64,000 nt of DNA from Alicyclobacillus contaminans DSM 17975 (lineage in GTDB: Bacteria > Bacillota > Bacilli > Alicyclobacillales > Alicyclobacillaceae): contig NZ_AUCA01000001.1 in assembly GCF_000429525.1 (NCBI RefSeq), positions 1-64,000 of the forward strand. Reading direction: 5' to 3'. Below are positions 5,697 through 54,202 of the stretch, piece by piece. Position 1 is the stretch's first letter. Every line of letters starts with the position of its first letter. A program made the position numbers and the translations under genes. The notes under the pieces are model-generated. The model did not search any database and was not told the origin of the DNA. It saw nothing but the letters and a program-made list of their open reading frames with translations.

Positions 5697-5785
5697 TTCC
5701 ACATGAACAGGGCAAACCAGTGGAAACGCTGGGACGCAAAGCCACGGGTCTAAGGGTAAAACCTATGATCGCCGGGTTGCCACGA
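5697..5785 (+). promoter_or_regulatory. c-di-GMP-I (GEMM-I) riboswitch
   Basis: The conserved GEMM-I core is present in order: AACAGGGCAAACC, a short P2 stem capped by GAAA, GGGACGCAAAGCC, the CTAAGG element, and the closing CGGGTTGCC. The last segment pairs with GGCAAACC to make P1. This class binds cyclic di-GMP and controls transcription or translation of the downstream gene. The gene that follows encodes an EAL-domain c-di-GMP phosphodiesterase, so the RNA probably provides feedback on the nucleotide it senses. A terminator follows at once, indicating transcriptional control. Confidence 0.93.
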
Positions 5786-5796
5786 CATACCTTTTG

Positions 5797-5823
5797 GGCG
5801 ATCCGTGCACGGGTTGCCTTTTT
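5797..5823 (+). terminator. Riboswitch expression-platform terminator
   Basis: GGCGATCCG and CGGGTTGCC form a nine-pair stem (two G-U pairs) with a TGCA loop, followed by TTTTT. Its 3' arm repeats the CGGGTTGCC of the aptamer P1 closing strand. The aptamer's 5' P1 strand could therefore pair with either copy, which gives a simple means of switching. Whether ligand turns expression on or off cannot be read from sequence alone. Confidence 0.82.
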
Positions 5824-5840
5824 CTACAAATTGGGGCGAA

Positions 5841-5944
5841 GGGTGAGGGGAATGGTAGACAAGAAGAATATCACGCTGTCGAAAAATCGGGTGAGGGGTG
5901 GGGGAAATGAGCAAGAAGCATATCACACTTGCGAATGGAAAAAT
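5841..5944 (+). repeat. Imperfect direct duplication of the gene start region
   Basis: Two copies, about 5841-5887 and 5889-5944, share GGGTGAGGGG, an ATG, CAAGAAG, ATATCAC, CGAA and AAAAAT in the same order. Each copy contains a ribosome binding site and an ATG (5852 and 5907). The encoded peptides start MVDKKNITL and MSKKHITL. The two starts lie in different frames relative to the G tract that follows. Confidence 0.7.
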
Positions 5945-5974
5945 AACCCTTCCGGGGGGGGGGGGGGGGTATAA
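5852..5974 (+). CDS. Upstream alternative start ORF entering the G tract
   Basis: The ATG at 5852 follows GAGGGGA and opens a 40-codon frame that runs without a stop through the 16-G tract. It ends at the TAA directly after it. As written it would make only a short peptide ending in Gly-Gly-Gly-Gly-Gly-Val. If the tract lost one G or gained two, this frame would continue into the EAL domain. It is therefore either a leader peptide or an alternative start for the phosphodiesterase. Its first residues resemble those of the main start. Confidence 0.45.
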   Translation: MVDKKNITLSKNRVRGGGNEQEAYHTCEWKNNPSGGGGGV

Positions 5975-6881
5975 TCCTCCAATAAACCCAATTTATGATA
6001 TTTCTATTCAAAGAAGTGTTGAATGGATACTTGAGCAAGGACGCATTGACACCGTCTACCATCCGATTGTAGATCACGCCAACAGCACGGTTTTCGGACA
6101 TGAGGTTCTCAGCCGTCCCCACTACGAAGGGCAACGGATTCCACCGGATGTCTGGTTTCACGCCGCTTATGAAAGCGGCCTGGCCGTGGATGCGGATTTG
6201 CTTTCGCTCTCCACCGGGGTGAAAGATTTCAGTGCATTGCCCCACGGAATCGCTTCCACCCCTCTGTTTGTCAATGTGATGCCCAACAGCCTTTCCGACA
6301 AGTCTTTTCTTCGGGGGGTTGAAATCCTCTTTGAAGAGGGATATCGCCAACCGGATGAATTGGTTTTCGAAGTCATTGAGCATGTGTCGTACGATCCGAA
6401 GTCATTGGCCCAATGCATCAAGCCCCTGCGCTCACTCGGAATTCGCATTGCCTTGGACGACTTCGGGATGGGGAATGCCAATCTCGCTGCGCTCGTTCAG
6501 CTTGAGCCGGACTTCATCAAAGTGGATCGTTCGCTGATTCAGGGAATTTCCACGTCATCCGCAAAGCAACGACTGTTGTCCCACCTGGTGGATTATATGG
6601 ATTCGGGTAATTCGGTGATTGCGGAGGGTGTGGAAACCCACGACGACTTGCTCGCTGTTCAGGCATCCGGCGTGAATCTGAGCCAAGGATACTACTGGAC
6701 CGCTCCCATGCCCATCACGAATCTCACCCTGTTGACGGAGGCTATAGAGAAGGCGAGAGACGAACTGGTCGCTTGTGTGCAAGAGAAAAACGGTGTGTTG
6801 ACAGACGACGAAGTGGTGCAGAAGAGTCAACAACTGGACTTCCTGATTATACAATATTGCCATTTGGGCCTCGGGATGTAG
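5907..6881 (+). CDS. EAL-domain c-di-GMP phosphodiesterase, G-tract interrupted
   Basis: About 324 residues. After a short N-terminus with five consecutive glycines (residues 17-21, encoded by the G16 tract) comes a single EAL domain. The catalytic signatures are all present: GHEVLSRP (the EAL motif as EVL), FVNVMP, ELVFEVIEH, IALDDFGMGNANL, PDFIKVDRS, VIAEGVET and QGYYW. It should hydrolyse c-di-GMP to pGpG in the cytoplasm; no membrane segment or sensor domain is seen. The ATG at 5907 follows a G-rich ribosome binding site. A c-di-GMP-I riboswitch and terminator precede it, and a second start region lies at 5852. Changing the tract by one or two bases would truncate this frame soon after the tract. 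Confidence 0.9.
   Translation: MSKKHITLANGKITLPGGGGGYNPPINPIYDISIQRSVEWILEQGRIDTVYHPIVDHANSTVFGHEVLSRPHYEGQRIPPDVWFHAAYESGLAVDADLLSLSTGVKDFSALPHGIASTPLFVNVMPNSLSDKSFLRGVEILFEEGYRQPDELVFEVIEHVSYDPKSLAQCIKPLRSLGIRIALDDFGMGNANLAALVQLEPDFIKVDRSLIQGISTSSAKQRLLSHLVDYMDSGNSVIAEGVETHDDLLAVQASGVNLSQGYYWTAPMPITNLTLLTEAIEKARDELVACVQEKNGVLTDDEVVQKSQQLDFLIIQYCHLGLGM
5954..5969 (+). repeat. Homopolymer of 16 G inside the EAL coding sequence
   Basis: Sixteen consecutive G bases run from the last base of a Pro codon through five Gly codons. Long G tracts inside genes are classic sites of slipped-strand length change and on/off phase variation in other bacteria. The exact length could also be an assembly estimate. 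A TATAAT follows directly. Confidence 0.85.
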
Positions 6882-39407: not shown

Positions 39408-39419
39408 GAGGGGTGAACC

Positions 39420-40433
39420 GTGAAAAAGCGTACGAGGCGGTTCATCGCCTTGTTGGTGGTGGCCTGTGGCATGGTCACCGTCGCGGAGTTGGCCGTGTTT
39501 TCGCACTATGAGTCGCTGTTGGGGGGGGGAAGCGTCACGGTTTCCGCACCGCCGCAGAAAACCGTACAGTCCCTGAAAAACATCCATCCATTGAATCAGA
39601 ACCCGGCGCTGATGGCCGTATCCGAAAGCACGGATAAATTTGCGTATGTGGATGAGAACAACACCTTGCACGTGATTGATCTCACCACCAATCAAGATGT
39701 CTTCACCAAGGCGCTGAATCACACGGCGGTCGCCATCACCTGGATTGGCGATGACAGCATTTTCGTGGGCACCGAGGAACCGGCCGCGGGCGGAAAAACG
39801 CTGTATCTGAGCACCATCAGCGTCGCGTCCGGACAGATTCGATTGGTCCATGCCTATCAGGGTTTCTCGAGCAGCGCCAGATTCCGGGCGATAACGTACA
39901 GCCCATATACGAACGATGTGTACGTGCTCATCGCGGGAAATACCAACAGTCTTGTGTACCACTTCGATACCATGAGTGACATGAGCCAGGTGTCCCTCGG
40001 AGGGCGCTACGTCACGGACGAGGCGGTTACGCAGACGACCAACGTGTTGTACGTGCAGGATCGCGCGAACGGTGTACCCAACGTGTTGAAGTACAGCAAG
40101 GGCACCGTGGAGCTGGTGCATACCAACAGCTGCTTGTACCGCGTGGTGAACGATGCGCTGTATTTTGGCGTGTTGGACAACCAGGGGAACGTCATTCGCA
40201 TTGACAAGGACGAAAACGGACAACTTTCGGTGTACTATACGCTGACTGCGCCGACGTCTCCGGACAAAGTGTTTGTCAACGGCGACGGACATATCCTGGT
40301 GGCGAACGGAGACAGCCTACTGGACGAACAGACGCATAAAACCATCCAATTGCCGCAGAATAGTCAACTGAGTGTGCAGGCCAACGCGTGCTTGGCTTGG
40401 ACGAAGGATGGAACCGTATTGGTGGTGTCATAG
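39420..40433 (+). CDS. Exported beta-propeller-like protein
   Basis: About 337 residues, GTG start. A signal or anchor helix (FIALLVVACGMVTVAELAVF) is followed by repeated beta-rich units such as DKFAYVDENNTLHVIDLTTNQDVFTKA, AVAITWIGDDSIFVG and FRAITYSPYTNDVYVLIAG, which suggest a WD40/PQQ-like propeller. No enzyme motif is seen. A run of nine G bases (39531-39539) lies in codons 37-40, early in the gene. It sits between the NAGPA protein and a polysaccharide deacetylase, so it is probably extracellular and involved with cell-surface polymer. Confidence 0.65.
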   Translation: MKKRTRRFIALLVVACGMVTVAELAVFSHYESLLGGGSVTVSAPPQKTVQSLKNIHPLNQNPALMAVSESTDKFAYVDENNTLHVIDLTTNQDVFTKALNHTAVAITWIGDDSIFVGTEEPAAGGKTLYLSTISVASGQIRLVHAYQGFSSSARFRAITYSPYTNDVYVLIAGNTNSLVYHFDTMSDMSQVSLGGRYVTDEAVTQTTNVLYVQDRANGVPNVLKYSKGTVELVHTNSCLYRVVNDALYFGVLDNQGNVIRIDKDENGQLSVYYTLTAPTSPDKVFVNGDGHILVANGDSLLDEQTHKTIQLPQNSQLSVQANACLAWTKDGTVLVVS

Positions 40434-41306: not shown

Positions 41307-41324
41307 GATCTCATCTGAATATGA

Positions 41325-41468
41325 ACCTTCGGGGGGCAGGGTGAGGCACAGGAAGGTGCCAATTCCCGACCGGTGGTGACGCCGTCAGGCGAAGGCCACG
41401 AGCCGCAAGGCAGGAACTGGTGAGAGTCCAGTACCGACGGTACAGTCCGGATGGGAGAAGGGAACGGG
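41325..41468 (+). promoter_or_regulatory. FMN (RFN) riboswitch
   Basis: The RFN element is clear: CTTCGGGGGGCAGGGTG at the 5' side, AATTCCCGACCGGTGGT, the CACGAGCCG segment, CTGGTGAGAGTCCAG, ACCGACGGTACAGTCCGGATGGGAGAAGG (given here as consecutive landmarks ACCGAC, AGTCCGGATGGGAGAAGG). It binds FMN and usually represses riboflavin synthesis or uptake genes. A terminator hairpin follows at 41523. The downstream coding sequence is a DMT-transporter stub followed by a LysE exporter, not a known riboflavin gene. Confidence 0.95.
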
Positions 41469-53212: not shown

Positions 53213-54202
53213 ATGAAATTAACTTCTGACCTACGTGTGGTCTTGCTCACTGCGCTGTGTTGTGTGTTTTCCGACGCCTTCTTAATACCAGATCACCTGT
53301 ACGCCCAAGCCGTGGTGCTCGGCGCTTCGGTGTTGTTTGTGGTGGTCGCGCTACTTCTTCCCAGCCAACGGCTGTGGCTGCGAACCGCGCTATTGACGCT
53401 ATCCGCAGTTGCCATCGCCGGATGCACGCTCGCATATCCTTCCTATGTGCTATACACCTTGGTCATGTCCGCTGTCATTTCCAGCTTTCTGTCCGTTCGG
53501 CTGCGCGCCATCCACGGCCTCATCTATTTTCTGCTACAGTTGGCCGTTTCGGCGTGGCCGCTCTACCGCATGCTCAGACATCCCGACGCGGCGTTTGCGG
53601 TCATTGTGGTTTCTGCCTGCGTCGTACTGATTGCGCAAATCGCCGAGGTATCGGTGAAGTTTCACCAGTACCGCAGGCTGTCCATTTTTGACGAACTGAC
53701 CGGATTGCACAATGTCCGCTACTTTCGCTACAAGATGCAGCAGTACCTAAAACACCCCAAGGTTCAGCACCTCTGTTTGCTCTTGGTGGATTTGGACAAA
53801 TTCAAAGTGGTCAACGATACGTACGGCCACCGCGAGGGGGACGAGGTCTTGAAGCGCGCGGCGCAGCTGTTGCAGCAGCACGCGAATCCGGCGGTCATCA
53901 GCCGGTACGGTGGGGAAGAATTTGCCATCATTTTGCCGAACGCCGCGGAATCTGACGCGGTTCGTCTCGCCGAACGGTTGCGATCCGCGCTCCAATCCGC
54001 AGTGCTCTGCGCGGTTCCTGTTACGCTCTCCTGCGGCATTGTCTACAGTGACGCGAAAGACGTGGACGTGGACGCTCTGTTTGACGCCGCCGACGCGGCA
54101 CTGTACGAAGCGAAGCAGACGCGCAACTGCGTGTGCGTCCGCCACCTGAAGGATGGCGCACGCCCTGTGCCCGGCAAGTCGGAGTGGATTGCTTCCAAGT
54201 GA
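53213..54202 (+). CDS. Membrane GGDEF diguanylate cyclase
   Basis: About 329 residues. Five or six helices occupy the first 155 residues (a 5TM-type sensor); a short linker leads to the GGDEF domain, with DELTGLHNVRYF, LLVDLDKFKVVNDTYGH and the active-site RYGGEEFAIILP. The RxxD inhibitory site five residues before GGEEF is absent, so product inhibition is not expected. It makes c-di-GMP from two GTP. The ATG at 53213 has AGGA directly upstream; the open frame begins earlier. It follows the manC terminator by about 210 bases. Confidence 0.88.
   Translation: MKLTSDLRVVLLTALCCVFSDAFLIPDHLYAQAVVLGASVLFVVVALLLPSQRLWLRTALLTLSAVAIAGCTLAYPSYVLYTLVMSAVISSFLSVRLRAIHGLIYFLLQLAVSAWPLYRMLRHPDAAFAVIVVSACVVLIAQIAEVSVKFHQYRRLSIFDELTGLHNVRYFRYKMQQYLKHPKVQHLCLLLVDLDKFKVVNDTYGHREGDEVLKRAAQLLQQHANPAVISRYGGEEFAIILPNAAESDAVRLAERLRSALQSAVLCAVPVTLSCGIVYSDAKDVDVDALFDAADAALYEAKQTRNCVCVRHLKDGARPVPGKSEWIASK

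Follow-up and report, generated by a model that had tools for sequence, protein, structure and literature searches.

A guanine run behind a duplicated start is a probable phase-variation switch in a riboswitch-gated EAL gene of Alicyclobacillus contaminans

Our analysis of a 64,000-nucleotide stretch of the Alicyclobacillus contaminans DSM 17975 genome (contig NZ_AUCA01000001.1, positions 1 to 64,000; hereafter the window) identified a gene for a predicted c-di-GMP phosphodiesterase whose coding sequence carries a long pure repeat, 16 consecutive G residues at 5954-5969, between the start and the EAL domain. We consider it likely that this run is a translational phase-variation switch on a riboswitch-gated phosphodiesterase, that a duplication of the start region makes two of the three tract-length states productive, and that the N-termini supplied by the two starts are equivalent. 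Alicyclobacillus belongs to a family of heat- and acid-loving spore formers, some of which are known spoilers of juice. The locus comprises the following features, all on the forward strand:

5701-5784, forward strand: c-di-GMP-I riboswitch aptamer (RF01051) upstream of the EAL gene, passing the Rfam gathering score (83.7 against 35 bits; E = 5e-15)
5796-5824, forward strand: terminator hairpin followed by a T run, from a pattern scan; its 5′ arm has the aptamer 3′ strand as an alternative partner (antiterminator)
5838-5883, forward strand: start copy A, with a Shine-Dalgarno sequence (-10.1 kcal/mol), ATG at 5852 and a leader beginning MVDKKNITLSK; aligned to copy B
5852-5974, forward strand: frame from start A at 16 G, by translation; 40 amino acids, with its stop just 3′ of the tract
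5893-5935, forward strand: start copy B, with a Shine-Dalgarno sequence (-12.6 kcal/mol for the ATG at 5907), GTG at 5898 or ATG at 5907 and the leader MSKKHITLANGKITLP; aligned to copy A and in frame with the EAL domain at 16 G
5907-6881, forward strand: coding sequence from start B, 324 amino acids; EAL phosphodiesterase domain (PF00563, E = 3.8e-51) and C-terminal Spo0E-like domain (PF09388, E = 8.2e-11)
5954-5969, forward strand: 16-G run encoding a glycine linker, by sequence and by comparison of orthologs; its position is conserved and its length variable in relatives

The preliminary description of this locus covered 5841-5974; it placed both starts and the tract correctly, but left out the riboswitch, the terminator and nearly all of the enzyme, and did not mention the Spo0E-like domain. 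The catalytic residues of the EAL domain align with those of solved EAL proteins (E of EVL, N, E, DD of DDFG, K, E of AEGVE and Q of QGYY), and the gene product is a predicted c-di-GMP phosphodiesterase. The C-terminal domain scores 42.2 bits against a Pfam cut-off of 23. Like the Spo0E family of Spo0A~P phosphatases, it matches PF09388 and carries an S-x-x-L-D type motif (SQQLD); unlike them, this putative phosphatase domain is fused to an EAL domain. In the literature searched, of which coverage was incomplete, Spo0E and EAL domains appeared together only in the context of Vibrio VieSAB.

The terminator was identified with a pattern for which shuffled sequences give an expectation of 1.9 such sites by chance. 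The sequence CGGGTTGCC is found in both the aptamer 3′ strand and the terminator 3′ arm, so the terminator 5′ arm can pair with either; the alternative duplex with the aptamer has an energy of -20.0 kcal/mol, versus -15.6 kcal/mol for the terminator hairpin. These competing pairings suggest that c-di-GMP binding may free the terminator, which would make this a transcriptional OFF switch, as is reported for class I c-di-GMP riboswitches of Clostridioides difficile (PMC11477304). A predicted OFF riboswitch on a phosphodiesterase gene would establish positive feedback towards low c-di-GMP. We also considered whether the riboswitch picks between starts A and B, and rejected this idea: both starts lie 3′ of the terminator and are affected by termination alike. 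The window also contains an ordinary FMN riboswitch (RF00050) at 41321-41466.

The two start regions are near-copies of one another. Their best local alignment pairs 5838-5883 with 5893-5935 and spans the Shine-Dalgarno sequence, the ATG and about 24 bases past the ATG, with 20 of the 24 bases 3′ of the ATGs identical (CAAGAAG(A/C)ATATCAC(G/A)CT..CGAA). The alignment score was equalled by none of 5000 dinucleotide-preserving shuffles, both for the whole unit and for the post-ATG part alone, and the pair is the top adjacent-copy match within the 64-kb window. A repeat search of the window had missed this duplication because of its indels; local alignment with shuffles detected it. Judged from the small indels and substitutions that separate the copies, the data suggest that the duplication is not very recent.

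The ATGs of the two copies are offset by 55 bases, so copies A and B sit in different frames, and each of the two start codons appears able, on its sequence, to feed the G run. We translated the region with 13-19 G and found that frame B reaches the EAL domain at 13, 16 and 19 G, frame A reaches it at 15 and 18 G, and neither does so at 14 or 17 G. The preliminary description had proposed just this arrangement: two near-copies of the gene start, each with a ribosome binding site and an ATG (5852 and 5907), that enter the 16-G run in different frames, with 16 G serving B, 15 or 18 G serving A, and 14 or 17 G serving neither. The alignment, the ATG offset and the translations bear it out.

We infer that start A can be used, and the main challenge to this comes from the possible, if rather unlikely, reading that start A is a relic of the duplication, or an upstream overlapping frame that merely dampens translation from B, so that the gene keeps the usual one-in-three switch. 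The Shine-Dalgarno sequence of B is the stronger of the two (duplex energies as low as its -12.6 kcal/mol occur at 2% of random positions, versus 8% for the -10.1 kcal/mol of A), and that of A is good yet unexceptional; the copies have diverged by indels; and at 16 G, frame A runs on to 5974 and across the start of the B coding sequence. Against this reading, copy A retains an intact Shine-Dalgarno sequence and ATG, and its frame is free of stops up to the tract. The frame is also open in 19% of shuffles, so its openness alone is weak evidence. Start A moreover occupies the terminator-proximal place where the relatives have their only start. We favor the reading in which both starts can serve the enzyme, each at its own tract lengths.

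Orthologs of the gene were found by whole-genome searches of the family and the order (a scan of contigs with the protein gave only remote Aquabacterium relatives). In 21 genes from 18 genomes, a pure G run occupies the corresponding position; these genomes represent two families of the order, the window's own and one other. The run measures 8-22 G in these orthologs and lies in a glycine linker that directly precedes the EAL domain, and a c-di-GMP-I riboswitch precedes the window gene and most of the tract genes tested. Other homologs lack the tract or have only 5-6 G (L005, where it is interrupted, L066, L083 and L084). No close ortholog of the EAL gene turned up in G001, a genome of the same genus (best E = 3.5e-17), and its copy of the neighboring dehydrogenase gene is followed by neither EAL-like nor tract-like sequence.

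Tract length varies even between closely similar loci. L012 and L014 are 99.1% identical and carry 12 and 20 G, respectively, while L002 (genome G003) and L005 (genome G024) are 98.7% identical and differ in having a pure G18 with the best ATG out of frame versus the interrupted GGGTGGGCGG, which is fixed in frame. Upstream DNA allowed us to determine the frame for 16 loci (by hand for L081): the best Shine-Dalgarno sequence belongs to an in-frame start in seven and to an out-of-frame start in nine, and in most loci the off frames hit a stop 0-25 codons past the tract. Several other genomes have contigs that start right at the tract, a suggestive hint of length variation. The ortholog on plasmid pAACI02 of Alicyclobacillus acidocaldarius DSM 446 (L010 / L095, NC_013207.1 23731-24642) has 21 G and a best ATG that is out of frame. 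Its annotated coding sequence in NC_013207.1 starts about 100 nt 3′ of the tract; with the start placed past the tract, the frame break, and any switch, is hidden by automated annotation. FapA family genes lie 3′ of this ortholog on the plasmid. The comparison across orthologs points strongly to annotation having masked a c-di-GMP phosphodiesterase gene that undergoes slipped-strand phase variation. We infer slippage within a population as well.

Among the genomes compared, the complete duplicated start was found in the window genome only. The preliminary description named related strains that lack both the duplication and a variable tract as evidence against it; this was not the outcome, as the relatives carry the variable tract and only the duplication is absent from them. 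The full start duplication was found in no relative examined, and a second ATG with a strong Shine-Dalgarno sequence in another frame was found in no other tract ortholog. In G003 and a close relative, overlapping GTG and ATG starts, with the GTG inside the Shine-Dalgarno sequence, open two frames (L002, L066 and L083), and at loci with an eroded tract the frame open to the EAL domain is that of the ATG in L005 and that of the GTG in L066. A weaker dual-frame start arrangement may thus recur, as in the G003 lineage. We also observed that L066 (G003) and L083 (G017, of another genus) have upstream regions that look the same, which points to transfer or mis-binning.

The frame counts bear on the improbable alternative that RNA polymerase or the ribosome slips on the G run and mixes frames in every cell, with tract length tuning expression and no heritable switch. 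In many intact orthologs the EAL frame is open although the best start is out of frame with it, which fits such slippage; however, phase variation explains the same pattern without slippage during expression, and the strong differences in tract length between nearly identical loci indicate slippage at the DNA level or assembly error.

The preliminary description went further and cast the G tract as a selector. Gating of the EAL gene, which is strongly supported by the family comparison, and the three-state logic, which follows from the sequence, are retained here; the functionally distinct N-termini are not, given how poorly conserved the leaders are. A fuller form of this proposal would hold that the tract picks among OFF, N-terminus A and N-terminus B, that the isoforms differ in activity or location, and that selection has kept the duplication for that reason. 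Both starts have a Shine-Dalgarno sequence and an ATG, both frames reach the EAL domain at suitable lengths, and the leaders keep a similar peptide (KKNITL in A and KKHITL in B), and of the four mismatches in the 24 aligned bases two are synonymous. We nonetheless judge it quite improbable: the orthologs have short leaders before the tract, rich in Lys and with little conservation, leader A consists in its second half of copy B in another reading frame, and no relative examined has the full duplication. A further reading takes the variation in tract length for an assembly artefact, with every gene constitutively in frame. Long G runs are error-prone in draft assemblies and contigs break there, but we hold this reading to be very improbable indeed: many independent assemblies, near-complete genomes among them, agree on a pure run in this position, and G024 has an interrupted, in-frame version where G003 has G18.

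We return to the switch with two starts, for which we propose the following model. Slippage of the G run would shift the EAL-Spo0E frame into and out of register with the start, giving rise to heritable ON and OFF cells. The c-di-GMP-I riboswitch and terminator, probably of the OFF type, would gate the same transcript, and an ON cell that is low in c-di-GMP would tend to stay low through positive feedback. In the window genome, a tandem duplication of about 55 bp followed by small indels created the second start in another frame, so that two of three tract lengths would be productive instead of one, probably with differing expression levels. N-termini A and B most likely give equivalent enzymes. 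At the 16 G of the assembled sequence, start B would be ON, and start A would make a 40-residue peptide that overlaps B.

Elsewhere, the window genome encodes more of the c-di-GMP machinery, with totals of 5 EAL genes, 8 c-di-GMP-I riboswitches and 10 GGDEF matches; these last, as domain matches, point to a means of making c-di-GMP. A second EAL gene (L045, G000:C6:86127-86924) has a c-di-GMP-I riboswitch, a G16 at the same position and a GTG start in frame, and is a candidate second phase-variable phosphodiesterase. A third riboswitch-controlled EAL gene has no tract. Within the window, a GGDEF domain at 53684-54124 on the forward strand (E = 1.1e-37) marks a diguanylate cyclase candidate. 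In the same genome, two c-di-GMP-I riboswitches lie close together on opposite strands (G000:C38:23210-23536), presumably serving divergent genes. We considered the other three G tracts of at least 12 G (12-16) in the window genome as coding switches (G000:C7:27167, C19:41595 and C22:49492) and set them aside, as they look intergenic. Separately, a run of 9 G at 39521-39529 of the window, near the start of a forward-strand open frame (39417-40433) with a hydrophobic, signal-like beginning, is possibly another slipping site.

If the model is correct, these acid- and heat-tolerant spore formers hedge by leaving to chance which cells have low and which have high c-di-GMP, and the Spo0E-like domain on the same protein could link this choice to sporulation through Spo0A. 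The combination of a c-di-GMP riboswitch and a mutable tract on a phosphodiesterase gene would be a testable example of rapid feedback embedded in a slower genetic switch. The duplicated start further suggests that frame-shifting duplications upstream of a slipping tract can be tolerated, and perhaps put to use. In the literature searched, whose coverage was incomplete, no c-di-GMP enzyme of the Alicyclobacillaceae was described as phase-variable through a homopolymer, and the wider combination, in which genomes across a family carry a riboswitch-controlled EAL-Spo0E fusion with a homopolymer in its coding sequence, was likewise not found.

The elements of this arrangement have separate precedents. 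The preliminary description knew of no system in which a duplicated start and a homopolymer choose between two N-termini of a c-di-GMP enzyme. That the arrangement lacks precedent is not supported: PMC4019658, citing Dixon 2007, describes two start frames feeding a repeat in Haemophilus influenzae lic1A and lic2A, which have a CAAT repeat and several ATGs in two frames. The likeness consists in a repeat 3′ of initiation codons in two frames and in two of three repeat states being able to give protein, possibly at differing levels (PMC4019658). Unlike the gene described here, the lic genes have a tetranucleotide repeat and act in lipooligosaccharide synthesis as enzymes of a Gram-negative bacterium. 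In the window gene, the second start arose by tandem duplication of a Shine-Dalgarno sequence and ATG. We know of no riboswitch for the lic genes. In C. difficile, pdcB and pdcC encode phase-variable c-di-GMP phosphodiesterases that create subpopulations (PMC9286219), and they share with the model for our gene the placement of a c-di-GMP phosphodiesterase under phase variation; theirs, in contrast, operates through inversion of upstream DNA acting on transcription rather than through homopolymer slippage in the coding sequence. A parallel for the proposed regulatory layering is the C. difficile flgB operon, which is subject both to a c-di-GMP-I riboswitch, reported as a transcriptional OFF switch, and to phase variation by the flagellar switch (PMC11477304, PMC5386303 and PMC7446863). 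The flgB operon encodes flagellar functions rather than a phosphodiesterase, and its switch works by inversion rather than by slippage.
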